Source of the DNA: a virus
Length of the DNA: 35,289 nucleotides
Strand: one strand, 5' to 3'
Virus record (IMG/VR): IMGVR_UViG_3300006917_000077
Coordinates: 1-35,289 of that record
Position 1 is the first letter of the stretch. Each line of letters begins with the position of its first letter. Below, one piece after another: positions 2,821-34,209 of this stretch. The notes below the pieces were generated by a model. It searched no databases and had not been told where the DNA came from. It saw only the letters and a list, made by a program, of their open reading frames with translations. The translations under genes and the position numbers were made by a program.

Positions 2821-2848
2821 AGTATACCCTATAAGTAAGTTACGTCAA
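2821..2848 (-). promoter_or_regulatory. Sigma70-type promoter for a leaderless transcript
   Basis: On the minus strand TTGACG (2848-2843) and TATACT (2826-2821) are 16 nt apart, close to the sigma70 consensus. The promoter follows an intrinsic terminator and faces the small-gene run. The expected start is at or next to the A of the ATG at 2814. Confidence 0.75.
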
Positions 2849-2854
2849 GTAAGC

Positions 2855-2886
2855 AAAAAGCCCCTAAATCACGGGGAAATAGGGGC
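2855..2886 (-). terminator. Intrinsic terminator after the HNH/tRNA region
   Basis: A perfect 7-bp GC-rich stem (GCCCCTA with TAGGGGC, 2860-2866 and 2880-2886) encloses a 13-nt loop. On the minus strand it is followed at once by TTTTTG. It ends the transcript carrying tRNA-Pro and the HNH gene and insulates the promoter 7 nt downstream. Confidence 0.85.
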
Positions 2887-2907
2887 CTGCAAATAAGTTG
2901 TGCACTA

Positions 2908-2932
2908 TCAGGGTAAAAGGAATCGAACCTAC
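2908..2932 (-). pseudogene. Orphan tRNA 3' half (T-arm and acceptor 3' strand)
   Basis: On the minus strand the T-loop TTCGATT is followed by CCTTT and then TACCCTG plus A. Spacing is exactly that of a tRNA: loop, 5-nt T-stem strand, 7-nt acceptor strand, discriminator base. TACCCTG is a perfect 7/7 complement of the 5' acceptor strand CAGGGTA of the tRNA-Pro gene about 430 bp upstream. The local 5' T-stem strand (GTAGG) fits poorly (3 Watson-Crick pairs of 5), as expected if the original strand was replaced. The HNH gene stop codon lies inside it. Confidence 0.7.
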
Positions 2933-3285
2933 TGATAGCGAGAGTATTCACTTCCTTTATGTTCTTTCCTGTGGCAATTAGCACATAATAGTATGCACTT
3001 TGTTGCTTCTTCTTGAATCTTTTTTACGCTGTAACCATGATTGATGGCGGTGCCTAAACTAAATTCTTTCGTGCGTCCATCTACATGATGAAAATCTAAG
3101 CAAACAGGATCAGTCTCTGTGCATCTTTCACACTTTTTATTGTTTTTTAAGCTTTTTAAAAATTCGAGTGTTCTGATCTTTCTTTCTTTGATTCGTGCTT
3201 GTTTCTTTTCTCTGTTTGCTTCGTACCATTTTTTGTTATAAGCACGATTGTGTTCTAGTTGTTTTTGCTTATCTTTATACGGCAT
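2929..3285 (-). CDS. HNH endonuclease inserted in a tRNA-Pro gene
   Basis: A 118-residue HNH nuclease starting MPYKDKQKQ. It has a long basic N-terminal helix (about 5-45), then CERC, DFHHVDG and CANCHRKEH, giving the zinc-binding Cys pairs and the HNH active-site His residues. A longer frame to 3399 would run through the tRNA and is rejected. The start is 10 nt after the tRNA-Pro 3' end, and the stop codon falls within a second tRNA 3' half. Small HNH proteins of this kind often act as homing enzymes that spread their own gene, which fits the insertion context. Target specificity cannot be read from sequence. Confidence 0.85.
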   Translation of the reverse strand: MPYKDKQKQLEHNRAYNKKWYEANREKKQARIKERKIRTLEFLKSLKNNKKCERCTETDPVCLDFHHVDGRTKEFSLGTAINHGYSVKKIQEEATKCILLCANCHRKEHKGSEYSRYQ

Positions 3286-3295
3286 ATAGTTTTTA

Positions 3296-3366
3296 TCAAG
3301 GTAGGACGAATCGAACGTCCGACTAAAGTATCCAAGACTCCTGTGATGCCACTTCACCATACCCTG
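3296..3366 (-). tRNA. tRNA-Pro (anticodon UGG)
   Basis: Cloverleaf on the minus strand: acceptor CAGGGTA/TACCTTG, D-stem GTGA/TCAC, anticodon stem GGAGT/ACTTT with loop CTTGGAT (anticodon TGG), 4-nt variable loop, T-stem GGACG/CGTCC with loop TTCGATT, discriminator A. C1:G72 and A73 with G35 G36 are proline identity features in bacteria. The acceptor contains a G3:U70 wobble. CCA is not encoded. The gene is directly followed by an HNH gene, and a better-fitting 3' half lies beyond that gene. Confidence 0.88.
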
Positions 3367-3398
3367 TATTACAAAAAGACTCTCCCTTTGTTCCTCCA

Positions 3399-3651
3399 CC
3401 CCTTAAACCAGGGGAATCCGACTACCGCACCACAGACTTGCATACCTAAAAGGGAAATCAGATGCATTGCTGTAGTGCACGGTGAGAGGTGGCCACCCTC
3501 TAAGAGTATTGATCAATCTGTTGCACTGCTTTGATCACTCTGGTATTACGCGAGGCGATCCTTTCGGACCCGCATGCTTGTACGTAATCATTCTGCCCAT
3601 TAAGGCAACCGCATGAGGTTTTTCACAGGCACGTTTTACGTTCTTGCCTGT
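3399..3651 (-). ncRNA. Candidate ornate structured RNA between two tRNA genes
   Basis: No minus-strand gene is visible between the tRNAs. Instead there is a row of stems, listed 5' to 3' on the minus strand: 3651-3645/3631-3625 (7 bp), 3588-3583/3550-3545 (6 bp) enclosing a GNRA hairpin with loop GAAA at 3565-3562, 3541-3531 with 3516-3503 (GATCAA/TTGATC plus AGAGT/ACTCT), 3501-3497/3489-3485 (5 bp), 3478-3470/3435-3427 (9 bp, one GU) enclosing 3466-3462/3443-3439, and 3414-3410/3403-3399 (5 bp). It does not match RNase P, tmRNA or group I/II intron cores by eye. The 3367-3398 remainder is unstructured and ends in a TTTTT run. Function is unknown. Confidence 0.4.
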
Positions 3652-3826: not shown

Positions 3827-3900
3827 TTGCGGGGGTCGGATTCGAACCGACGACCTACTGGATATGAGCCAGCCGAGCTGCCAGACTGCTCTACCCCGCG
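3827..3900 (-). tRNA. Initiator-type tRNA-Met (anticodon CAU)
   Basis: The 74-nt cloverleaf has acceptor CGCGGGG/CCCCGCA, D-stem GAGC/GCTC, anticodon stem GCTGG/CCAGT with loop CTCATAT (anticodon CAT), T-stem GTCGG/CCGAC with loop TTCGAAT, and discriminator A. The unpaired C1-A72 end and A11:U24 pair are marks of bacterial initiator tRNA. The usual three G:C pairs of the anticodon stem are only partly kept (one is U29:A41). CCA is not encoded. The stop codon of the upstream membrane-protein gene lies within its first 10 nt. Confidence 0.92.
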
Positions 3901-17808: not shown

Positions 17809-18054
17809 TTAAGCGCTCTCAAGTGTGTCAATGTGACCAATCAAAAATGTTGTCACACCACGCCATTCTTTAAGCTGTGCTTGCGTACGGCCGAGCATCA
17901 TCTCTGCTGACTTATCACCCATCACCATCTTACGCGTGTAATACGTTTCCATGAGTGCTGCACGTGCAATATCTTTCCTCATTGAAAGGAGTAAATCCTT
18001 TGCTACTTCCAGAGACAATGCATCATCTGAAATCGTTGATAACTTCACAGACAT
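17809..18054 (-). CDS. Hypothetical helical protein, 81 aa
   Basis: A predicted all-helical small protein (MSVKLSTISDDALSLEVAKD and onwards). It overlaps the aminotransferase end by 32 nt and is followed by the terminator hairpin before portal. It may be a head-completion factor or the last gene of the cassette. No family is recognised and no ribosome site is visible. Confidence 0.65.
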   Translation of the reverse strand: MSVKLSTISDDALSLEVAKDLLLSMRKDIARAALMETYYTRKMVMGDKSAEMMLGRTQAQLKEWRGVTTFLIGHIDTLESA

Positions 18055-19102
18055 AGGCTTGATCTTTATGAGTTAATGAATGAGACGATGGAAGGTACAG
18101 GCCATGTGTTTGGAGATACTCCGCATTAGGTTGGGGATGGTGGAGCTTGTACGGAGGATTGTTGTGATAGGCCGTAAAGAATGGCCGTGACTCGATACCA
18201 TACTGGTGCAGATGGTCCATCAGCTCACCACGACGGGCAGATAACACCCCAAACGCCCACCAGATAGGATTAGACTCCAAATCTCCGACTAATGGGATAA
18301 CATTATTGGTCTCCAAATTGCGGTAGTAGTACGCAGCCATAGCACGCTTGGCTTCCAATATAGACTCAATACGCGAAAGCTGAGAGATACCCAATGCAGC
18401 GGACATAGACGGCATACACAACGAGTAGCCCATTTCTTCATGGTAATACCGCACAGGTCCCGCATATTGGTCCTTCAGCAACCGTACGCGGTTTGCGTAC
18501 ACTTCATCATCGGTAACCACCATCCCTCCCTCACCAGTAGTGATCGTTTTATTGGCAAAGAATGAAAACACACCCATATGACCAAACGATCCCACCTTTT
18601 GCCCATCAATATCAGCACCATGCGCCTCCGCAGCGTCCTCGATCACTTTGATCTCGTAGTCCTCAGCCATCTTCATGATAGAGCGCATCTTTGCAGGGAA
18701 TCCATACGTGTGGATTACCACCATTCCACGAATATCGGACCATTTCGTAAGCACGCGGCGCAATTCAGCAAGGCTTAGATTCCCCGTTGTCTTTTCAACA
18801 TCCACAAAAATAGGGGTATATCCAGCCTGTATGACCGCATTAGGCACGGCGATATACCCAAAAGAGGGAACAATCACTTTCGCGCCCTGGCCGAGGTCAA
18901 GGGCTTTTAAGGCCAAAAATAAAGCAGATGACCCCGAATTGACTGCAATACCATAGTCAGTCCCACAATAGCCTGCAAAAGAGGCCTCAAAGAGGGATAC
19001 AACGTTGGTGCGGCCTGAGATCTGGCCTTCACGGAGGATATTGGTGACGTAGTCAACATCATCCTTGGTGATCTCAGGTTCAAATACAGGAATTTTTCTC
19101 AT
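18023..19102 (-). CDS. per: DegT-type aminotransferase, probable GDP-perosamine synthase
   Basis: A PLP enzyme of the DegT/DnrJ/EryC1 family, 359 aa from MRKIPVFEP. The PLP lysine is K185 in FFANKTITTGEGGM, with VIEDAAEAHG (D156) as the cofactor aspartate. The NSGSSALFLAL stretch and ESRPFF near the end match RfbE/Per enzymes, which turn GDP-4-keto-6-deoxymannose into GDP-perosamine. The partner enzyme GMD is directly upstream, overlapping by 23 nt, which makes this specificity likely. A longer start 6 codons upstream is less probable. Cytosolic nucleotide-sugar pathway. Confidence 0.88.
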   Translation of the reverse strand: MRKIPVFEPEITKDDVDYVTNILREGQISGRTNVVSLFEASFAGYCGTDYGIAVNSGSSALFLALKALDLGQGAKVIVPSFGYIAVPNAVIQAGYTPIFVDVEKTTGNLSLAELRRVLTKWSDIRGMVVIHTYGFPAKMRSIMKMAEDYEIKVIEDAAEAHGADIDGQKVGSFGHMGVFSFFANKTITTGEGGMVVTDDEVYANRVRLLKDQYAGPVRYYHEEMGYSLCMPSMSAALGISQLSRIESILEAKRAMAAYYYRNLETNNVIPLVGDLESNPIWWAFGVLSARRGELMDHLHQYGIESRPFFTAYHNNPPYKLHHPQPNAEYLQTHGLYLPSSHSLTHKDQAYVCEVINDFR

Positions 19103-20045
19103 AAAGCATTTTTTCAACAAGTTTTTTATCGGTTATAACAGGCTTCCACCCAAGGGCGAGCTTTGCCTTACTGGCATTGCCTCGTAACAACGCCACATCG
19201 CGAGGGCGCTTGTATGCAGGATCAATGATCACCTTGAGAGGTTTTTTTGTTACCTGCTCAACCCACGATACAAACTGCTTCACTGAGGCAGTCTTCCCCG
19301 TCGCAATCACAAAGTCATCTGCTTTTTTATACTGCAACATTTTCCATGCCATCATCATATACTCAGGGGCATAACCCCAATCACGTTTTGAATCAATATT
19401 CCCAAGATGCACCTCTCCATCAGGCACGGCATTGATAATCTTTTTAGTAACAAAGTTATCACCTCGCCGTGCACTTTCATGGTTAAACAAAATACCGTTG
19501 GAAATAAACATGCCATGCGCGTCACGATAATTCTTTGCAATTTGAAATCCGTAAAGCTTAGCAGTGCCATACGGAGACACAGGATCAAACGGTGTCTTTT
19601 CGTTTTGCGGGTTTTGTTTTGGGTCACCTGAATACAACTCCGATGTAGAAGCCTGGTAAATACGAGGCATAATACCCAATACACGAATAGCCTCTAACAG
19701 ATTAAGTACACCCACCCCCGTCGTTTGTGCGGTGTACCATGGCGTCTCCCAGGACACCTGTACATGAGACTGTGCCGCCAGGTTATACACCTCATCAGGC
19801 TGCGACTTTTTGAGCGCCCATAATAGTGAAAAAGGATCAGTCATATCCCCATAGTGGAGATGGAGCTGATCACGAATATGATCAATGCGTCCTGTATTAA
19901 AAGAGGATGCACGACGAACTAGGCCATGCACCTCGTACCCCTTCTCTAGCAAGATTTCCGCCAGATAAGAGCCATCTTGCCCAGTCAGGCCAGTCACAAA
20001 TGCCCGTTTCTTAGGCGAACCGTCCTTGTTTGTCTCGTGTTGCAT
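19080..20045 (-). CDS. gmd: GDP-mannose 4,6-dehydratase
   Basis: An extended short-chain dehydrogenase making GDP-4-keto-6-deoxymannose from GDP-mannose. It has the NADP-binding TGLTGQDGSYLAE (18-30), STSELY (133-138) and catalytic Y159xxxK163 (PYGTAK), then RRGDNFVTKKI and DWGYAPEYM, all family marks. At 321 aa it is slightly short (about 340-370 is usual) and the C-terminus ends abruptly. The start MQHETNKDG overlaps the end of the HNH gene by 35 nt, so the HNH gene probably moved in just upstream. Phage cassettes with gmd usually make deoxysugars for surface glycans. Confidence 0.93.
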   Translation of the reverse strand: MQHETNKDGSPKKRAFVTGLTGQDGSYLAEILLEKGYEVHGLVRRASSFNTGRIDHIRDQLHLHYGDMTDPFSLLWALKKSQPDEVYNLAAQSHVQVSWETPWYTAQTTGVGVLNLLEAIRVLGIMPRIYQASTSELYSGDPKQNPQNEKTPFDPVSPYGTAKLYGFQIAKNYRDAHGMFISNGILFNHESARRGDNFVTKKIINAVPDGEVHLGNIDSKRDWGYAPEYMMMAWKMLQYKKADDFVIATGKTASVKQFVSWVEQVTKKPLKVIIDPAYKRPRDVALLRGNASKAKLALGWKPVITDKKLVEKMLYEKNSCI

Positions 20046-20409
20046 AGTGTATTTCAATCTTACGATGCTCACTGTTTGATACTAGCTGTAAGTTAGATAT
20101 CTTGTTGTTTTTTTTATTTCCATCCTTATGGTGGACATGTTCAGTGTTCAGTAATCGACGTCCTAGTTTTTTCTCCATTACTAAACGATGTACATATCTA
20201 TCTGTTTTTGAATCGCGTACATACCCATCTGGTCTTGTTTTTGTACCGCCCTTCCATAGTGGGTGATTCTTTCCACTGTTACCTTTAAAAAAGCATCCAC
20301 GACTACAATACTTTTTCACTTTAAAGTCAGTGACGCTTTTACATGATGATCTATCAAAAGACGTTCTACACACTAAACAAAGTTTGGGGGGGAGTATGAG
20401 TTTTTTCAT
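20011..20409 (-). CDS. HNH endonuclease, homing-type, inside the glycan cassette
   Basis: 132 residues from MKKLILPPKL. Cys pairs CLVC and CSRGC form a metal knuckle, KNHPLWKGG is a typical spacer motif, then VHRLVMEKKLGR and EHVHHKDGNKKNN give the HNH core. It matches free-standing phage homing nucleases of the HNH_3 type. It splits the methyltransferase-gmd junction and has its own extended -10 box 7 nt before the ATG, unlike its neighbours, as expected for a mobile gene. ATG at 20418 is an alternative start. Confidence 0.88.
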   Translation of the reverse strand: MKKLILPPKLCLVCRTSFDRSSCKSVTDFKVKKYCSRGCFFKGNSGKNHPLWKGGTKTRPDGYVRDSKTDRYVHRLVMEKKLGRRLLNTEHVHHKDGNKKNNKISNLQLVSNSEHRKIEIHYATRDKQGRFA

Positions 20410-20416
20410 ATTCCCC

Positions 20417-20425
20417 ATTATACCA
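20417..20425 (-). promoter_or_regulatory. Extended -10 promoter (TGgTATAAT) for the HNH gene
   Basis: On the minus strand TG-G-TATAAT ends 7 nt before the ATG at 20409, so the HNH transcript would be leaderless. The box lies in the short gap after the methyltransferase stop codon, separate from the cassette operon. Confidence 0.5.
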
Positions 20426-21013
20426 TTAGTGCTCTTTTATTGTCCATACGATTAAGTATTTACGTCCAGGGAACCGTTCTGACTCGATAGTCTCCACGAC
20501 AGGAGTACCGTAGGCAGAAAAAAACAAACGTAGATCGTTCTCGTCAAACTCCCAAAGATGCTCAGGATCATCAAACTCCAAGTGAGGCGTTGATAGGATC
20601 ATAATACCCCCTACTTTACAGATGCGAGCCATCTCTGACACCAGTAATGCAGGGACCTCCATGTGCTCAAGTAACTCACCTGATACCACGGCATCAAACT
20701 GCTCCTTTGTGTAAATCGTGGTCGTTGCATCACCCACGTCATACACAATATGAGGATAGTCAATACGGAGACGTGCGATGGTGTCCTTTGCAAAGTCGAC
20801 CCCATGCACATACGGATAGATATCCGCAGCTTTGGGTAAAAACGCAGAGACCCCGCAGCCTAACTCAATAACACTCTCAATGCGAGGGTGTGTAGCAAGA
20901 AGCGCTAGATAGCGATCCTGCCGCAAGGTGTTCTCCATGTCCACCTGCTTTCCACTAAATTGTTCGTCGAAATACTGTGGGGTGTTGATGTTCCCCTGTC
21001 TTAACCGTTTCAT
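20426..21013 (-). CDS. Class I SAM-dependent methyltransferase, 195 aa
   Basis: It has SAM motif I VIELGCGVSAF (about 48-58), the acidic end of strand 2 (HGVDFAKD) and the later motif FDAVVSGELLEHMEVP, as in UbiE/Methyltransf_11 type enzymes. In a glycan cassette it probably methylates a sugar or amino-sugar. It overlaps the glycosyltransferase upstream by 4 nt (ATGA) and has one of the few clear ribosome sites (AAGGAG), though 11 nt away. Confidence 0.85.
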   Translation of the reverse strand: MKRLRQGNINTPQYFDEQFSGKQVDMENTLRQDRYLALLATHPRIESVIELGCGVSAFLPKAADIYPYVHGVDFAKDTIARLRIDYPHIVYDVGDATTTIYTKEQFDAVVSGELLEHMEVPALLVSEMARICKVGGIMILSTPHLEFDDPEHLWEFDENDLRLFFSAYGTPVVETIESERFPGRKYLIVWTIKEH

Positions 21014-21972
21014 AGCTGAATAAACTCCTTATACTTCCGTTTCAGAATACCCCATGAATTAGCAGCTGCCCATTGCTTTCCCTCCTTGGAGTAGGCGGAA
21101 ATGTCGGTGTCATACACCGCGTCAATGCACTGCGCTATATCACTTGCTTTAATAATAGCACTTTCAAAATCCATGCCTATACGCTTCCACTCATATCCAA
21201 AAACGGGAATCAATAAATCGCGGGGAAGCCATGCGTTAGTAGGGTAGCGGTCTGCTGCCATGACTGCTAATCCAGATGCCCACGCCTCCTGCATGGGGAG
21301 AAAGGAACCGCCAAACTTATCAGGCAATATAAATACATCACCCTCTTTCCAGAGATCCTCGTAAGGTACCGAGCCGTTTATGATGGTGATACGTGGGTCA
21401 GATGACTCATAACCACCGTTCTGGGCGCGTAGGATGAGCTGTGCGGGACTTTTGACCATCTCCCAGGCATGTAAGACCTCTAGGGTGCTATTACGGCCAA
21501 GTAATCCACCATGTCCTGCATTATGAACAAACACCTTCGCCTTTTTGCGTAGTTTCCACGATGCCTCTACAGGTATATTAAGACGAATGATAGGAAGCCC
21601 CACATCTTTGTACGTGTCGTAATCCAAATCAGAGGGTGCAATGAGCTTGTCAGGCCAGTAATACGGCGGATTGGGGGTGCACTCATAGTGGGTCACTAAG
21701 ATCGTTTGCTTACCCAGTGCCCGCGCTTTTTTAATAACCTGCCAGTCAAAAAACGTTTCAAATGCAATGATAGTATCACACTTGTCGAGTAGCTCATCTA
21801 TGCTTTTGCATGCATTGGGATACCAGTCTTGAGTAGGGTAATGAGAGTGTGGCACCACGTACATCTCGTCAATAAGACCATGATCAAAAAACGCCTTGCA
21901 CTCAATGCCAAGGCCCGACTGGGTGGCGTAACAAATAGCCCCTACACATCCATATTGCTCGGATTGAACCAT
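21010..21972 (-). CDS. Glycosyltransferase, GT-B type
   Basis: 320 residues. The N-terminal half has a Rossmann-like layout (CDTIIAFETFFDW, KQTILVTHYEC). The C-terminal half has the GT4-like donor domain (VFVHNAGHGGLLGRNSTLEV, ITIINGSVPYEDLWKEGDVF), then FGGSFLPMQEAWASGLAV, matching the nucleotide-sugar-binding E-rich loop of GT4 enzymes. It should move a nucleotide-activated sugar, plausibly perosamine, to a glycan or virion protein. It overlaps both neighbours, as in a tight operon. Confidence 0.82.
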   Translation of the reverse strand: MVQSEQYGCVGAICYATQSGLGIECKAFFDHGLIDEMYVVPHSHYPTQDWYPNACKSIDELLDKCDTIIAFETFFDWQVIKKARALGKQTILVTHYECTPNPPYYWPDKLIAPSDLDYDTYKDVGLPIIRLNIPVEASWKLRKKAKVFVHNAGHGGLLGRNSTLEVLHAWEMVKSPAQLILRAQNGGYESSDPRITIINGSVPYEDLWKEGDVFILPDKFGGSFLPMQEAWASGLAVMAADRYPTNAWLPRDLLIPVFGYEWKRIGMDFESAIIKASDIAQCIDAVYDTDISAYSKEGKQWAAANSWGILKRKYKEFIQL

Positions 21973-22391
21973 ATATCATTTTTATTACCTTGTAATGACA
22001 CAATAACTTGTGCATGATCTTTGTACTTTTCAATAAATGCCTCTGAAGAAATACCCATGGAGCCAAGTGAAATAACCTGAAATACCACCTCCCAATTACC
22101 GTGTACAGGATCGTTATAATCTCTCACTTCAAAGGTGTAATCGGGATGTAACTCATGTGCCAGTTCAATCATCTTCGGCGAGTAATCAAACCCCTTATAC
22201 TTCTCAGGCTTAAAGAGGTGCGCAAATCGTCCATAACCACACCCAACATCAAGCACTTCCTTATCACGAAAAAATGACAGAATATGATTTGCAAATTTCT
22301 GATGCTGCACCGTGATACCACTATGCCAAATCATGCCTCGCAAATCATGACGATTCTCTTCTACACGCTTGTCCCAGTATTCAATGCTCAT
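21942..22391 (-). CDS. Small SAM-dependent methyltransferase, 149 aa
   Basis: It has motif I VLDVGCGYGRFAHL (about 46-59), then GFDYSPKMIELA. At 149 aa it is shorter than most class I enzymes (about 180-250), so the last strands may be missing; a minimal or truncated form is possible. The end overlaps the GT4-like gene by 31 nt. It probably methylates a cassette sugar. Confidence 0.78.
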   Translation of the reverse strand: MSIEYWDKRVEENRHDLRGMIWHSGITVQHQKFANHILSFFRDKEVLDVGCGYGRFAHLFKPEKYKGFDYSPKMIELAHELHPDYTFEVRDYNDPVHGNWEVVFQVISLGSMGISSEAFIEKYKDHAQVIVSLQGNKNDIWFNPSNMDV

Positions 22392-23128
22392 ATATCTTTT
22401 AGATTATCTTCCCTCCATTTTTTATATACCTCAGGGTGCGCGTATAGCTCTCTTCTAAATGGACGCTGACCGCCAATGCCACAGAACCCATCCCATATCG
22501 AGCCAAGATCAAGGAAAAAGCTATCAGGGATCTTACCGTGTAACCTCTGAGCGAGAAGTGCCGCAGGAATGCCCGCAGCAATGATATAGACACCTGGTTT
22601 TGCATACGCCAGTGCTGACTCAACCGCCGCATCAAAGGTGCCATCCGTCCAGCAATTAGGATATCCAATCTCAATGAAATGGTCATAGTTAAGAAAGTCT
22701 AGTTGTCGAAGCGCCTTATTACTTATGATACACACGTTCATGGTGCGCAGTTGTTTGATAAGCGGCCCCAACGTCGCTGCCTTCATATGTTCATTCCACA
22801 CGTTCTTCTCAACAAACTCAATCTCGACAGCCAGTTTATTCAACACACGATCTACCGCAGAGTCATACTCGAAGTACTCGCGTACTTTCTTGAATGTATC
22901 AGGTGCTGCAAAAAAGAAGTTGTCTCGTTTGAAACCCAAAGACTCGTACAGCAGGTAACACAGGTCAGGTACATACTTTGTGCCCTCGCAATTCTCAGTA
23001 AAGCGATCACCAAACGCATGATTAAAAATAGCTTGCCACTCTCCATCGCCATACATACCAAGTGAAAAGTAGTCATTATTAGCCAGACGACTAATATACC
23101 AATCAAGAGGGTGATTGATTAATGTCAT
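22388..23128 (-). CDS. GT-D-type (DUF1792-like) glycosyltransferase
   Basis: 246 residues with GMYGDGEW near the N-terminus (24-31), resembling the RYGDGE motif of GT-D fold enzymes. A later region has VYIIAAGIPAALLAQRLHG and SFFLDLGSIWDGF, matching the AGP...L / D-G conserved end of that family. These enzymes add glucose-type sugars to protein-bound glycans in Gram-positive cells. Both ends share ATGA overlaps. The fold call is fairly good; the substrate is unknown. Confidence 0.7.
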   Translation of the reverse strand: MTLINHPLDWYISRLANNDYFSLGMYGDGEWQAIFNHAFGDRFTENCEGTKYVPDLCYLLYESLGFKRDNFFFAAPDTFKKVREYFEYDSAVDRVLNKLAVEIEFVEKNVWNEHMKAATLGPLIKQLRTMNVCIISNKALRQLDFLNYDHFIEIGYPNCWTDGTFDAAVESALAYAKPGVYIIAAGIPAALLAQRLHGKIPDSFFLDLGSIWDGFCGIGGQRPFRRELYAHPEVYKKWREDNLKDI

Positions 23129-24222
23129 AGATGAGCGGTAATAATAGGCTTAGCACCCCAATGCAGGATAGTTGTATCAACCTTCCAACCTGCCTTATTA
23201 AGCAAATCTATTGCCGACTCAACCGTACACCCGTAAAAGTGATCAACCTCATGGCTTTTGTTTTCATTGCACTGAACAACCAGGCGCTCCACCCTGTCTT
23301 TAAGCCAGATCAATAACGGTATCTGCTTTTCTCGTGGAATGTGATACAGCACACATAACAGTAATGCCACGTCGTATTTAGGGAGATGCTGCTGCACCGT
23401 GATATCCTGCTCCAAAAACGTAACAGGCAGTTTGCGCTGCTCGTAAAACTCCATAATCAGGCGGTGAAACTCAGCACCTTCAATAAACTCATGATCCACC
23501 CCGACAACATGGCGGGCAGTAAGCGCACAGTTGACCGTTATCCAGCCCTCATTACATCCAATGTCCAAGATATATTTGTCATCAGGTTGGATGATGTCTT
23601 TTAATACATCCCATTTCTTAGTGTTTTCAAAATACGTCGTAGGGAGATGAGCTTCAATGTTTCTAAATGAGCCATAATCCAGCGCGTAGTAGTTGGGACC
23701 AAATACCATCTCACGTGCGCGCGTCGTCCTTTTAAGGAAGTCCTCGTCAATTTCATTGTATGCAAATCGGTAAAGCTTTGCGGGGATAGTCTTATGACCC
23801 AGGTGTTTCATGATTGCGGCACGATGGGAGCCGTCCAGCTTTTGACCAGTTACCTCGACAGCCACGGGTGTCTTAAGACCGTCCTTTTTTATCCATTGGT
23901 ACAGGTCATAGAAGCCTGCAATACGGTTGATGGTAGCTTCTTCGCCCTTTAACGCAGCCCAGGAACGAAAGTATGGCGTACGCTCGGCCAAAAGTTTAGG
24001 CTCTGCCATCTCCAGATCAGAAACTACCGCATCAAAAAGCGTTAATGTGTCCAGCATCGGCTGGTAATTCACCCAATATAACTCCCCCGTATCCTCATTA
24101 ATAGCCACTGTATCAGCCAGGAAATCGTCAATGTTTATAGTGACATCCAGCGCAATGCGCCCTTCAGTCTCCAATAAGAGCTTACGCTGCTCCATGGTGG
24201 TCGTATGTAAAAGATACTTCAT
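23125..24222 (-). CDS. ParB-like domain fused to a SAM methyltransferase
   Basis: 365 residues. The N-terminal half contains KLDGSHRAAIMKHLGHK (128-144), the DG-HR-A signature of ParB/sulfiredoxin-like domains, where the GxxR motif binds nucleotide. Residues 217-227 (YILDIGCNEGW) are SAM motif I, followed by VVGVDHEF and the DVALLLCVLYH strand. In ParB CTPases this motif handles nucleotides, so the domain may bind a nucleotide-sugar or CTP here. It sits in mid-operon, overlapping both neighbours by 4 nt. Confidence 0.8.
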   Translation of the reverse strand: MKYLLHTTTMEQRKLLLETEGRIALDVTINIDDFLADTVAINEDTGELYWVNYQPMLDTLTLFDAVVSDLEMAEPKLLAERTPYFRSWAALKGEEATINRIAGFYDLYQWIKKDGLKTPVAVEVTGQKLDGSHRAAIMKHLGHKTIPAKLYRFAYNEIDEDFLKRTTRAREMVFGPNYYALDYGSFRNIEAHLPTTYFENTKKWDVLKDIIQPDDKYILDIGCNEGWITVNCALTARHVVGVDHEFIEGAEFHRLIMEFYEQRKLPVTFLEQDITVQQHLPKYDVALLLCVLYHIPREKQIPLLIWLKDRVERLVVQCNENKSHEVDHFYGCTVESAIDLLNKAGWKVDTTILHWGAKPIITAHL

Positions 24223-25151
24223 AAAAATGGGGTTATTTCTTTAATAAGCTGCTCGCATCGATGACGATAGGTGTGGTGAGCCTTCGCATGATCAAAGCCT
24301 GCTCTGCGAATAACATCACGTTCAGCATCATGGCGAACAAAATAATCAATTTTTTCTTTGATACCCTCAAAGTCACCATATTGATAGGGGATAAAGTGTT
24401 TGTAAGGGGTAAACTCCTGTGCAAAACCAGGTATTTCAGGAAATAACAGAAAACCACCTCGTCCTATGGTCTCATACACACGGTTGGACCAGTAGTAGGG
24501 TGAAAATACTGAGTCGCCAATAACCACCTTTGCCGAGGCATAGAGTGTATTCAGCTGAGCGTTACGTATTTCCTTACCCTTACCTCCATACCAGGCAAAA
24601 TTGCGATCATACGTCTTCGTAAGCCAATCAAGTAACTTTCGTCTATGATCCCATCCAAACCATTCATCATGACAAGAGGTACCGACAAATACCACATCAT
24701 GTGCATACGCAGGATCAACCTTTGCAATATAGGCCTCAGGCTCATAAATGCCCTGTCTCAGCGTTATATGACGTTTTACGCCCAATGCAGCATATTCCTT
24801 GTCGTGTCCTCCATCAGTGGTAAATACAATATCAGCCTGGAATAGGGGATGTGTGTGTATTTGCCACTCTCTGCGGGTATTGATCGAGAGATCCCAAAAC
24901 CACCCCACCTTTAGACGCTTGTCTCTTTTAAGCATTGCTCGTATCTCACGATCTTCGCCATCACGAAACCAACCCTTTGAGAATAAGATCACATCATAAT
25001 CAGCCTGCAATTGAACTCGGACCGCATCCTCAGTCGCATGAGCAGTATTTACCCGCTTTACCATGTGACCCATCGACTCCAGCGTATTAGCAATATAGAC
25101 CTCAGTGTCATAAGGCTTTTCAAATACGCCAAAATAAAGGATTTTAAGCAT
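24219..25151 (-). CDS. CgeB-like glycosyltransferase (GT-B)
   Basis: 310 residues. A Rossmann-like start (MLKILYFGVFEKPYDTEVYI) and the donor half with WSNRVYETIGRGGFLLFPEI (about 222-241) match CgeB/GT4-related proteins from spore-coat and phage glycan clusters. The SNRVYE-G-GGF motif is their most conserved block. It overlaps the GT2-type gene by 8 nt and the ParB-methyltransferase gene by 4 nt, so it is co-translated. Confidence 0.85.
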   Translation of the reverse strand: MLKILYFGVFEKPYDTEVYIANTLESMGHMVKRVNTAHATEDAVRVQLQADYDVILFSKGWFRDGEDREIRAMLKRDKRLKVGWFWDLSINTRREWQIHTHPLFQADIVFTTDGGHDKEYAALGVKRHITLRQGIYEPEAYIAKVDPAYAHDVVFVGTSCHDEWFGWDHRRKLLDWLTKTYDRNFAWYGGKGKEIRNAQLNTLYASAKVVIGDSVFSPYYWSNRVYETIGRGGFLLFPEIPGFAQEFTPYKHFIPYQYGDFEGIKEKIDYFVRHDAERDVIRRAGFDHAKAHHTYRHRCEQLIKEITPFL

Positions 25152-26157
25152 GCTGCTTTGTTTTATGGCCTTTTAATGCGATCTCTGTTTTACCTTCCCA
25201 ACCACAAAGAGGGCACGTTGGAAGTTTTGGCGCAACAGGTGTCTCAATTTTTACTCCCAAGTCAACCTCTCCGATATAGTCAAACATCTTGCTGACATGA
25301 CCATCAACAAGGCAGGTGCGCTTTAATGTACTCTCAAGATCCGTCTCAGGTACATCAATAACGCGTCCATCTTTTACTCTTTTGACATAGTGAAATTTCA
25401 TAGGCGTTCCGTTTTGTTTAGTAAAGTAGGGTGTTGCTCGAGGTTGGCAATCGACGGCCAATCGTAACTGAGCGAGGAGTCCTGGGCCATCAAAGGGGCG
25501 CATTTCACATTCACGGTCAAGGTCATCGTAATAGACTCGATCTTTGTATTCGGCCTTTGGGTCGTACTTTTTATAACGATCTGCTTTACGTTTTCGGTCG
25601 CTGGCAAGCATAAGGCCGAAATGACTGAGGTAGAAAGGAGCGTGCCACCCATATTCGTATGCAAAAGCTGGAGCCAGTCCACAATGCAGTGGGGTGTTTT
25701 GGAAGGCGAGAGAGAACTGTGGTGCGTATTTGAAGAATCGGACGTTCCAGAATCGCTGGATGCCTGCTCCATGGGCGAAATGTTGCTCATCATTGTAGTG
25801 GTTAACCACCAAGAAGTAATACGCGATTTCACCTGTACAAGCCAAAGCTTCAGCTTCTTGACGAGTAAACGCTGGAGCAAAGGCTTCGTCAGAATCAATG
25901 GCAATAATCCAATCAGGGCAAAGAACCGCGACACGCGAGAGCAGGTCTTGTTTGATGCGGGGTTGATACTTACCCCATTCTCGGTTGTCTTCATACTGCC
26001 AAAAGCCATACGAACGTATCAAATCTTTAGTTTTGTCGTCAGCGTTATTTGTAGCGATAACCGCATCATCACATAGTCGTGCAAACTCTTGTAAAGAATG
26101 GTGAAGGTAGCGGTCAGCTTCTCCAGGGCCACACACCATGAAGCCAATGATACGCAT
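25144..26157 (-). CDS. GT2-type glycosyltransferase with C-terminal C2H2 finger
   Basis: 337 residues. It has a GT-A fold start with DSD at 88-90 (IIAIDSDEAF), the usual metal/nucleotide-sugar-binding aspartates, then NVRFFKYAPQ and HFGLMLASDR. Unusually, the last 23 residues carry two Cys and two His (C315, C318, H331, H336), spaced as in a C2H2 finger. It is the first gene of the cassette, 3 nt after the 112-aa head-region gene. Confidence 0.82.
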   Translation of the reverse strand: MRIIGFMVCGPGEADRYLHHSLQEFARLCDDAVIATNNADDKTKDLIRSYGFWQYEDNREWGKYQPRIKQDLLSRVAVLCPDWIIAIDSDEAFAPAFTRQEAEALACTGEIAYYFLVVNHYNDEQHFAHGAGIQRFWNVRFFKYAPQFSLAFQNTPLHCGLAPAFAYEYGWHAPFYLSHFGLMLASDRKRKADRYKKYDPKAEYKDRVYYDDLDRECEMRPFDGPGLLAQLRLAVDCQPRATPYFTKQNGTPMKFHYVKRVKDGRVIDVPETDLESTLKRTCLVDGHVSKMFDYIGEVDLGVKIETPVAPKLPTCPLCGWEGKTEIALKGHKTKQHA

Positions 26158-27988: not shown

Positions 27989-28525
27989 TTATTCACTATC
28001 ACCGCGTGTGTTACCCCTTGCAACGCGATCATTGAAGGCCTCTCGGCGTTCAGCGTCGGTTTTCAGTTCACTATATTGCTTTCCCTTGTAAGAGATAGCA
28101 GCAGAGCGTCCTGTAGGGGTTGGGACGGCACTTTCTGCTTTTGCTTTCCTACGCATTGCTTCAATACCCTCCTTAACGATGGGATTCTTCAAGAGCTGTG
28201 AGATGGGAACCTTAAAGGATGATGCCTGCTCGTGCAGGTCAAGAATCTCTTTGTCGGTATATCCCTGTGATCGCAACTCGACGACTTCCCTCGTGTTAAG
28301 GTCCGATAGTGGAGCTTTTGTTTCAGGTGCAGCAGCAAGCGCTGACTGTCCCTTAAGTGATTTAAGTTCAATCTCGGCTTTTTTGGCTCGTGCAAACAAG
28401 CGCTTGTTAGCCTCTGCCAATTCTTCTGGCGATTGAGATCCGTCATCTTTCGGTGCAAGTGTCTCAATATCACTCGCGTCGTCCTGTTGTGAAGAGGCAG
28501 GCAACTCTTTTTTTTCTTCTTCCAT
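27989..28525 (-). CDS. Scaffolding protein, 178 aa
   Basis: Acidic start (MEEEKKELPASSQQDD), a coiled-coil middle (ELAEANKRLFARAKKAEIEL) and a basic end, in the place just before the capsid gene. This composition and position are typical of phage head scaffolds, which guide capsid subunits and then leave. No protease motif is seen. The start is preceded by an unusual structured leader. Confidence 0.82.
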   Translation of the reverse strand: MEEEKKELPASSQQDDASDIETLAPKDDGSQSPEELAEANKRLFARAKKAEIELKSLKGQSALAAAPETKAPLSDLNTREVVELRSQGYTDKEILDLHEQASSFKVPISQLLKNPIVKEGIEAMRRKAKAESAVPTPTGRSAAISYKGKQYSELKTDAERREAFNDRVARGNTRGDSE

Positions 28526-28618
28526 AGGGTTAAGAGCCTAGGCTCAATGCTTTAAGGGTTAGCTCCCAATGCTTTGCAGCAGGTCAGCTCAGAGTTTTCA
28601 CTCGGGAGCCAACCTGCT
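28526..28618 (-). ncRNA. Structured leader RNA before the scaffold gene
   Basis: On the minus strand a long hairpin runs from 28618 to 28578. It has AGCAGGT/ACCTGCT, then GCTC/GAGC, then GAGT/ACTC capped by a GAAA tetraloop (28599-28596), with small internal loops. It is followed by two related units (28575-28555 and 28553-28526) sharing AAAGCATTG and TAACCCT; the second holds the 12-bp palindrome GAGCCTAGGCTC (28545-28534). It fills the whole 98-bp gap. It may regulate scaffold or capsid translation. Confidence 0.5.
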
Positions 28619-28623
28619 AGAAA

Positions 28624-28878
28624 TCATTCCATGTCAGCACCTGACATATTGATATGGGCGTCTTCTTTCGCCCATCCGCGTAATGGTGCAATGATGTCAC
28701 GCTCAATTAATGTTACTGCATCACGACGCACGTCATAACTCAAATCAGAACGGACATTACGTACATCTGCATGGAACTGCACGAACTCCTCAAGCCACTC
28801 AATCAATGCTTGCCCCGCTACCGAACGAGCAATAGTACGCAGCCGTTTTAACTTTAATTCTTTTGATGAGAGTGCCAT
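28624..28878 (-). CDS. Hypothetical protein, 84 aa
   Basis: Starts MALSSKELKLKRLR (another ATG two codons upstream is possible). Helical and charged, ending HINMSGADME. It lies between terminase and scaffold, a place often used by small head or packaging factors. No family is recognised. Confidence 0.65.
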   Translation of the reverse strand: MALSSKELKLKRLRTIARSVAGQALIEWLEEFVQFHADVRNVRSDLSYDVRRDAVTLIERDIIAPLRGWAKEDAHINMSGADME

Positions 28879-28896
28879 ATACAAAAAATGCTATCA

Positions 28897-29055
28897 CTAA
28901 ATGTCGTTGATTACAATCTTTTGTTCACGTACCACAATGAAATAATCAGGACGGCCATTCTGATCCTTCTTTATTTGAATATACTCAAACGGCCTCAACT
29001 CACGTAACAACTCAATGACACGCGCTTCGGCTTTTGAAATATCATTCAGAATCAT
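28897..29055 (-). CDS. Hypothetical protein, 52 aa
   Basis: A short complete frame starting MILNDISKAEARVIELLREL and ending in strand-like repeats (IQIKKDQNG, FIVVREQKIVIND), suggesting a small alpha/beta protein. It overlaps the large terminase end by 14 nt and precedes the 84-aa gene by 18 nt. Without it the gap has no explanation. Function unknown. Confidence 0.6.
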   Translation of the reverse strand: MILNDISKAEARVIELLRELRPFEYIQIKKDQNGRPDYFIVVREQKIVINDI

Positions 29056-30367
29056 ACCCTGTTTTTTTTATAAGAGTTTTAGTACTTAGCATTGCCGAAG
29101 CACGGGATGGGATAGCACCAAGCTTTGTGCCAACATCCCACCATGCAAGCGCGAGAGACATAACACAGTCATCATGATACCCCTCAGGCGCACCGTAACG
29201 AATAAGACCAGACTTCGTAACTTCATATCCAAAGAGGTTCAATTCCTCAATAAGTTCAGGTATCTCAGGTATCTGTAGCTTGCGTTGTTCTATGCCAATC
29301 GCCAAGTTGGTGACAAGGTTTGATTTTGTAGCAGACGTAAACATCACAGGTTCAATGAACATACCGCGTGCATCCAGATCATCAATGATCGGCTGGCCCA
29401 CTCCTGTAGCGTCAACCTTTGCTCTCCCTTTACCATGACGACGATACAAAGCTTCGATGCGTGCTTTCTGTAAATTGTAGTCAATCTGGTTATAACGATC
29501 AAATACTTCCAAGCGATGATTGTAGCGGTTGATACCCGATACCACTGTCCAGTCCACCAACTTTGCAAGGTCAATCCCCCATTCATACGTTGCTATCTTA
29601 TCTGATCCTCTATTCTCCTGCGGCTCAAGATAGGGACCAAAGATAATATCTTGTATACCCCTAAATACCACTCCTCCATCATCAGACTCGCGACACATAA
29701 ACTCCTGATCAAAGCCTGCCTGGGTCATGGTTGAGCGCGCTTGTGCAATCTGCTCCGTACCCAAGATACCTGACGACTCCACATCCAACGTCATGCAAAA
29801 GAAATTAGGATCACCCGCATTCATACGACGTTCAAAATCAGCATAGATATCACGCCAATACTTACCTGTAGGCTTAGGCGTTCCGATAATCCATACCCAC
29901 ATATCAGGATTAGCCATCGCAATAGGCAGGATAATCTCGTTCCATACCGCAGGCTTCATCATGTACGCTTCGTCTAAAATAACGCCCTTAGGGTTAGGAC
30001 CACGCAGAGAGTCAGGCTTGTCAGCACCTTTGACCACCATTGATGAACCATAGAGGAAATCCACCAGTAACTCGGAATCATTCTTTTTGACCACAATCTC
30101 ACCAGGTAGGTATTTGGAAAGCATTTCTGGATCACGCCAGACAATCTCCTTACCTTGGGAGTACGTAGGGGCAACATACCAGTACACGCCTGGCTTCTTT
30201 TGTGAGCCGCCATACACCGCCTGCTGGATAAGATGGTTGATAGACAACGCAGATTTACCCGCCTTGCGATGGATCTTCAAAAACTTGAACCTCGATGGGT
30301 TCTGGAGCACCTTCAACTGGTACGGCCTCACTTGGGGGTCGAAGTTGTACGGTATTTGGATCGCCAT
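29042..30367 (-). CDS. Terminase large subunit
   Basis: The packaging motor and DNA-cutting enzyme. Counted from the ATG at 30367: ATPase Walker A-like HRKAGKS (33-39), Walker B VILDE (129-133), motor motif IIGTPKP (about 165-171). The C-terminal RNase H-like nuclease starts at GIDLAKLVDW, followed by VDATGVGQ and the final HDDCVMSLALA aspartates. At 441 aa it is of normal size. The start overlaps the small terminase gene by about 113 nt, unusually long, but the N-terminal motif VRPYQLKVLQN requires it. Confidence 0.93.
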   Translation of the reverse strand: MAIQIPYNFDPQVRPYQLKVLQNPSRFKFLKIHRKAGKSALSINHLIQQAVYGGSQKKPGVYWYVAPTYSQGKEIVWRDPEMLSKYLPGEIVVKKNDSELLVDFLYGSSMVVKGADKPDSLRGPNPKGVILDEAYMMKPAVWNEIILPIAMANPDMWVWIIGTPKPTGKYWRDIYADFERRMNAGDPNFFCMTLDVESSGILGTEQIAQARSTMTQAGFDQEFMCRESDDGGVVFRGIQDIIFGPYLEPQENRGSDKIATYEWGIDLAKLVDWTVVSGINRYNHRLEVFDRYNQIDYNLQKARIEALYRRHGKGRAKVDATGVGQPIIDDLDARGMFIEPVMFTSATKSNLVTNLAIGIEQRKLQIPEIPELIEELNLFGYEVTKSGLIRYGAPEGYHDDCVMSLALAWWDVGTKLGAIPSRASAMLSTKTLIKKTGYDSE

Positions 30368-33476: not shown

Positions 33477-34088
33477 TCATCCCTCCTTATTGCGTGCCAG
33501 AAACTGACTAAGGCTTTGTACAGGTACGGTAATAGAGGAAATATCTTTGTGGACTTTGGCAGGTTTAGTCTCTTCACTGGGCACCTCCTCATTCCTGGAG
33601 TCGTTATACTCACGAATAAACGACACAGGAACACCCGCACCTTTTTTATTCTCCATCCACACATCAACCGAGGCACCCTTTGCAACATACAAAAGCGTAT
33701 TACGCAAAGCGATCTCTAAGAACAATTCATCAAAAATAGGGTTCCAATAGATCTTTCCTTGCGCTACCAGTTCGTTTCTTTTTTCAAATGCCAGATCAAA
33801 ACTTTTCTGGTTTTGATGGTATCCCATCTGGGCACGATACATATCAGGGTGGACCGAGTTCGGATCGCCCCGATGGCATGTAACGCACAGAGTAATACCA
33901 TTAATAACTGTATTCACTTTTGACAGCGGCCATTTTAAGACCGATGTCGCATACCGAAAGGGCACTATGTGATGCACTTCCATTTTTTCATTGGAACCGC
34001 ATAACACACATTGCTCAAAATCCCTCGCTCTGATAAATGCACGCTGACCATCCGTATACCCATCATCACGCCTTCTTTTCTTTGCCAT
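33477..34088 (-). CDS. HNH endonuclease with extra C-terminal region, 203 aa
   Basis: Starts MAKKRRRDDGYTDG with AGGAGG 6 nt upstream. The HNH core is residues 15-75: CVLC, VHHIVPFRYA, then NGITLCVTCHRGD. The remaining 130 residues are not part of a standard HNH and contain a helical domain (FDELFLEIALRNTLLYVAKG) and a polar tail. That region may give DNA specificity. It overlaps the 47-aa gene by 23 nt. Confidence 0.87.
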   Translation of the reverse strand: MAKKRRRDDGYTDGQRAFIRARDFEQCVLCGSNEKMEVHHIVPFRYATSVLKWPLSKVNTVINGITLCVTCHRGDPNSVHPDMYRAQMGYHQNQKSFDLAFEKRNELVAQGKIYWNPIFDELFLEIALRNTLLYVAKGASVDVWMENKKGAGVPVSFIREYNDSRNEEVPSEETKPAKVHKDISSITVPVQSLSQFLARNKEG

Positions 34089-34209
34089 CTTTAACCTCCT
34101 TTGGTGCTTTTGCACACCCATCACATATCGCCAATGCCGTGGCAAAACCGTACTGACCGTCAAGTATTACAAAATAGCGGTAGCACAGTAAGCAACTATA
34201 TGTACTCAT
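34066..34209 (-). CDS. Cys-rich small protein, 47 aa
   Basis: Starts MSTYSCLLCYRYFV with CLLC and later CDGC (residues 6-9 and 33-36), a probable zinc ribbon, and ends in a basic stretch. A GGAGG 10 nt upstream supports the start. It overlaps the HNH gene by 23 nt. Function unknown. Confidence 0.7.
   Translation of the reverse strand: MSTYSCLLCYRYFVILDGQYGFATALAICDGCAKAPKEVKDGKEKKA

Follow-up and report, generated by a model that had tools for sequence, protein, structure and literature searches.

The window, which is the whole 35,289-nucleotide stretch of viral DNA that was analysed, carries a complete tRNA-Pro gene, an HNH endonuclease gene and an additional, orphan tRNA 3′ half. This anatomy is confirmed, with every element on the minus strand, and the features are given below in the 5′ to 3′ order of that strand.

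3827 to 3900, minus strand: tRNA-Met(CAT), upstream of tRNA-Pro on the same strand and given for context (ARAGORN; Rfam, 59.5 bits)
3366 to 3296, minus strand: complete tRNA-Pro(UGG), anticodon TGG (ARAGORN; Rfam, 54.4 bits)
3321 to 3366, minus strand: most likely the native part of tRNA-Pro, with 5′ acceptor strand, D-arm, anticodon arm and variable loop (ARAGORN, Rfam; first 24 nt compared with loci L338 and L339)
3296 to 3320, minus strand: most likely a substitute T-arm and 3′ acceptor strand with discriminator A (GGACG, TTCGATT, CGTCC, TACCTTG, A), which completes the tRNA and has a T-stem differing from the native type
2929 to 3285, minus strand: HNH endonuclease gene, 118 aa (PHROG matches, invariant Cys/His motif, AlphaFold model)
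2908 to 2932, minus strand: orphan T-arm and 3′ acceptor strand, most likely native and displaced (GTAGG, TTCGATT, CCTTT, TACCCTG, A; 7/7 acceptor pairing, match to uninterrupted tRNA-Pro genes)
2846 to 2894, minus strand: terminator-like hairpin, then a U run (RNA fold −18.2 kcal/mol, z −3.8)

The 5′ strand CAGGGTA of the tRNA-Pro gene pairs with the present 3′ strand TACCTTG through one G-U, and the T-stem of the present 3′ end (GGACG...CGTCCTACCTTG) is paired at five of five positions. The ATG of the HNH gene lies 11 nt past the discriminator base of this tRNA. Its stop codon, TAG at 2931 to 2929, falls inside the 5′ strand of the orphan T-stem. The orphan acceptor strand TACCCTG forms seven of seven Watson-Crick pairs with CAGGGTA; the orphan T-stem is slightly decayed, as one T.T mismatch leaves it paired at 4/5 positions. 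Both pairings, the exact tRNA spacing and discriminator A of the second half, and the stop codon within that half had been described in a first-pass annotation, and all were found again. The covariance-model scan proposed there recognises the present gene as a tRNA (54.4 bits).

The unit that carries the HNH gene is 388 bp long and contains no other gene. As the orphan half comprises the whole T-arm and the acceptor strand, the insertion point is the border between variable loop and T-arm and not the T-loop. Ahead of the orphan lies the sequence GAATACTCT, which by eye matches the tRNA at 8/11 positions and is only suggestive of residual anticodon-arm sequence. Just upstream of tRNA-Pro, hairpins resembling a D-arm and an anticodon arm are found on the minus strand at 3365-3440; neither ARAGORN nor Rfam calls a tRNA there, and the sequence is possibly a decayed tRNA.

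The orphan half is well beyond chance. Between 2700 and 3700 the only direct-repeat family found is a repeat of 23 nt with 83% identity. Six T-loop motifs are present in the 35-kb window, and for just two, those of the substitute and the orphan, a 7/7 complement of CAGGGTA comes next at the right spacing; among 400 random 35-kb sequences, one of 705 T-loop motifs was followed by such a complement. When the native 5′ part is joined to the orphan by a script, ARAGORN accepts the product as tRNA-Pro, whereas shuffled orphans were accepted in 1 of 200 cases.

The HNH gene encodes a protein of 118 amino acids (MPYKDK...NCHRKEHKGSEYSRYQ) that matches PHROG HNH families with E values of 4.5e-24 and 9.6e-24. 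An HNH motif with zinc-type cysteines is present: C52, C55, H66, H67, C101, C104 and H105 are invariant over 37 homologues, and N103 and H109 are nearly so. The Pfam HNH score is 17.2 bits, under the cut-off of 21.4. An AlphaFold (AF2) model with a mean pLDDT of 91.9 displays a long N-terminal helix and a compact HNH domain, with the last C-terminal residues weakly predicted. A Foldseek search with this model found no solved structure at E < 0.001; an HNH nickase, 4h9d, ranked fourth with E 2.4. Elsewhere in the window, a second and different HNH-type gene is situated at 33477-34163 on the minus strand, with no tRNA called nearby. Genes that resemble sugar-nucleotide and glycosyltransferase enzymes, as judged from translations only, occupy 18023-26157 on the minus strand.

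Which of the two 3′ ends is native was addressed with one pattern covering both versions, scanned over 2.9 million viral contigs. The scan gave three matches, all of them uninterrupted phage tRNA-Pro genes (L338-L340) and all of the orphan type; it found no uninterrupted tRNA-Pro with the present-type 3′ end. The first-pass annotation had proposed a search for uninterrupted genes with an end like CCTTT-TACCCTG, and these three have one. They share the 5′ start CAGGGT and a 3′ end made up of GAAGG, TTCGATT, CCTTC, TACCCTG and A. This end is identical to the orphan at 23/25 nt vs 20/25 to the present end, in comparisons that involve small numbers and unrelated phages. The first 24 nt of the window tRNA-Pro are identical to L338 at 21 positions and to L339 at 20. 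The three phages are not known as close relatives of the window phage and thus provide a match of gene type, not an isogenic empty site. As these genes match the orphan better, the native 3′ end is most likely the orphan; the T-arm and acceptor strand now in place were most likely imported. An insertion at the T-arm that brought in a substitute 3′ end, as earlier proposed, is therefore supported, and no HNH-free tRNA-Pro with the TACCTTG end and without an orphan half appeared among the scan matches.

A near-isogenic empty site was not present in the collections searched. Close relatives of the window phage were sought via the endolysin, a 920-aa protein, the terminase and the tRNA 5′ pattern, which yielded just one 100%-identical fragment (2.3 kb compared, at 28045-30358, far from tRNA-Pro). 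A DNA search of the phage collection with the element and with the tRNA gave no match.

The two 3′ ends might also have arisen locally, if a break at HNH insertion duplicated the tRNA's own 3′ end and the copies then diverged, with nothing foreign imported. They do have GTTCGATTC, TACC and a following GATA in common and are identical at 19/25 nt overall. In the T-stem, however, both strands of the present end differ from the native type and still pair with each other, and the acceptor differs at one base, so that drift would require several compensated changes in one short stem. As the T-stem is altered on both strands and the rest little, import fits better than drift of a duplicate. The three uninterrupted relatives, closer to the orphan than to the present end, also argue against a duplication, which we regard as unlikely.

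The terminator-like hairpin lies just after the orphan. Strong pairing followed by a U run is what is expected if the orphan was the original end of the transcription unit, and the hairpin is probably the original terminator of the tRNA unit. A simple terminator scan with a loop limit of 8 misses it.

HNH relatives are common at tRNA genes in phages, bacteria and archaea. Profile scans gave 174 viral (IMG/VR) and 80 cellular (GTDB) loci with a recognisable HNH frame; some of the viral loci overlap on a single contig, and the cellular ones include many related haloarchaeal loci and so are not independent. A tRNA overlaps the HNH gene or lies within 150 nt of it at 90/174 IMG/VR loci and 63/80 GTDB loci. 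In 36 loci (e.g. L001, L043, L057, L121 and L167) the HNH stop codon is exactly U8-A9-G10 of the tRNA. The HNH reading frame thus crosses the tRNA acceptor strand and ends in a conserved triplet, anchored on the 5′ end of the tRNA. In many Halobacteria (within L110-L182) the HNH gene is found ∼27-134 nt upstream of tRNA-Gln, an arrangement that is apparently a shared locus. At the archaeal loci L105, L116 and L149, a TTGGAAACC or GGTTCGAAACC motif is present shortly ahead of the HNH start and is perhaps an operator that mimics a T-loop.

Displaced tRNA parts were observed at several other loci. At L027, a tRNA-Met comes first, then an HNH gene that runs on the other strand and contains an in-frame stop close to its start, and last a displaced, CCA-bearing 3′ half. 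The mirror-image arrangement occurs at L070: a displaced 5′ half of tRNA-fMet stands ahead of the HNH gene, and a complete tRNA-Met comes after it. At a position where the displaced strand forms a normal pair, the new 5′ strand of this tRNA-Met forms a G-U. Displaced 5′ halves of a tRNA-Leu and of an archaeal tRNA-Gly are found at L261 and L149, respectively. Whole tRNAs can be involved as well. At L033 a native tRNA-Met is split between variable loop and T-arm, with an HNH gene and a complete tRNA-Met between halves that rejoin as a tRNA (shuffles 5/200), and at L082 a tRNA-Phe is split at the anticodon loop with an HNH gene and a tRNA-Pro inside. At L035 (2415-2475) and L324, the HNH gene is preceded by a degenerate but almost whole tRNA-Trp and followed by a complete one. 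In a Candidatus Pacearchaeota locus (L124, 2446-2878), the HNH gene lies within a tRNA intron, the two ends of which make up a 12-bp inverted repeat; if long introns are permitted, ARAGORN joins the exons into a single tRNA. The element had earlier been described as an unfamiliar tRNA-sited HNH mini-element. It is not unique, given HNH relatives widely at tRNA genes and displaced-tRNA layouts at other loci. No description of replaced tRNA halves was found in the part of the literature that was covered.

These layouts bear on two further readings. In the first, a small att-flanked element would have inserted at the tRNA 3′ end with a recombinase acting in trans, the tRNA being restored at attL and the orphan representing attR. 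When integrase-type elements insert into tRNA genes, the tRNA is made whole again and a remnant of its 3′ part stays at the opposite end of the element; an intact tRNA, an element and a displaced 3′ end have just this geometry. Unlike such elements, the window unit is only 0.4 kb long, and HNH is its sole gene, with no integrase or recombinase. The repeats are 83% identical and do not remain identical through the acceptor end, unlike normal att cores, and neither the 5′-half displacements nor the anticodon-loop insertion at the sister HNH loci is expected from an att core at a tRNA 3′ end. An integrase-type insertion is accordingly very improbable.

The other reading is that of an intron or split tRNA: the transcript would lose the segment that starts with the present 3′ end and runs up to the orphan, and the tRNA would use the orphan half. 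The perfect 7/7 Watson-Crick pairing of the orphan acceptor, better than that of the present end, and the intron location of the archaeal relative with its inverted repeat are consistent with it. Yet no Rfam intron family, ribozyme core or bulge-helix-bulge is found in the window and no inverted repeats in the tRNA-Pro/HNH region, and the adjacent 3′ end already completes the tRNA with a perfect T-stem while the orphan T-stem carries a mismatch. We consider removal of the segment from the transcript scarcely credible. Insertion of an HNH unit that supplies a new 3′ end thus remains the preferred reading.

Carriage of tRNA pieces is not universal among the HNH relatives. Most of those near tRNAs have no displaced fragment. 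In Felixounavirus, an HNH gene is precisely inserted between two tRNAs of FelixO1 and is absent from VpaE1, so that presence of the HNH element is polymorphic in close relatives, and this plain insertion involves no tRNA exchange. A T-loop SNP in tRNA-Thr that distinguishes FelixO1 from VpaE1 was considered as a resistance mark and rejected, as the HNH-positive EcoM2 is identical to VpaE1 at that position.

In a blind alignment control (score ≥16), tRNA-like fragments opposite the HNH gene were found at 7 loci in 297 tests vs 3 in 386 at HNH-free tRNAs. This is only a moderate enrichment, in part because some tRNAs in arrays escape ARAGORN. In an automated test of acceptor pairing the result was 3/23, with a control mean of 0.76 and a maximum of 4. 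With these two results, the generality of the phenomenon rests on individually inspected loci. Several candidates were set aside on inspection: a 12-nt 5′ repeat at L021 (S-RIM50) forms part of a hairpin that follows cpeT and could be due to chance, the apparent fragments at L028 and L293 are by eye unannotated complete tRNAs, and a fragment at L047 stems from a different tRNA and is ambiguous.

Mobile endonuclease open reading frames that bring replacement gene 3′ ends are found in fungal mitochondria, in atp6 of Allomyces macrogynus and in atp6, atp9, cox2 and nad3 of Glomus (PMC3630166). By analogy, this appears to be the closest known mechanism. In both cases the endonuclease gene carries a divergent replacement 3′ end and the hybrid host gene is complete, and the native 3′ end is displaced downstream and is closer to that of relatives than is the inserted end (PMC3630166). 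For the tRNA-Pro gene, we infer import of the present end, as in the mitochondrial type, from the comparison of 3′ ends. The mitochondrial proteins differ from the phage HNH in being LAGLIDADG or GIY-YIG enzymes, and their hosts are protein genes of a mitochondrial genome; the phage element would therefore work like these open reading frames without being a member of their group.

Among phages, T4 SegB is a free-standing GIY-YIG homing endonuclease that is located between tRNAs and spreads in co-infection (PMC2988022). It is a small intergenic endonuclease that targets a phage tRNA region, and no replacement tRNA part is described for it (PMC2988022). HNH genes inside phage and mycobacterial tRNA arrays have been suggested to spread or diversify tRNAs (PMC5966550; PMC6409571). 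Unlike the window element, these genes are reported by presence only, with no displaced or replaced tRNA halves in the available parts of the two sources.

The locus is probably a compact homing element that consists of an HNH gene and a replacement T-arm/3′ acceptor strand and is situated where the variable loop and T-arm of a phage tRNA-Pro meet. During mixed infection, an element-free phage would have its tRNA-Pro gene nicked or cut by the nuclease close to this border, and repair with the donor as template would copy in the HNH gene along with a T-arm and 3′ strand that work. The native 5′ part and the imported 3′ end would then form a chimeric tRNA that stays functional, so that insertion would cost little. 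The native 3′ end would be stranded as the right border of the element, beside the original terminator. With a changed T-arm in place and the native T-arm separated from the rest of the gene, the recognition site would be lost and the carrier protected. We infer cleavage, the exact target, mobility, immunity and tRNA maturation from the sequence.

A wider family behind the tRNA-Pro element is plausible. There is perhaps an even chance that an HNH family specialised on tRNA genes exists as integrase-free mobile units that carry a 3′ end, a 5′ half or a whole tRNA, and that in archaea reside in a spliced tRNA intron. Such a family would explain why many HNH genes occur in tRNA clusters and why tRNA fragments lie beside these genes. 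The tRNA-Pro element suggests that the fungal mitochondrial strategy of replacing the end of the gene that is broken also exists for a phage RNA gene. It offers a concrete and testable route to chimeric phage tRNA genes and diversified tRNA arrays; if this is true, HNH units that carry tRNA parts would continually generate chimeric tRNA genes in phages.
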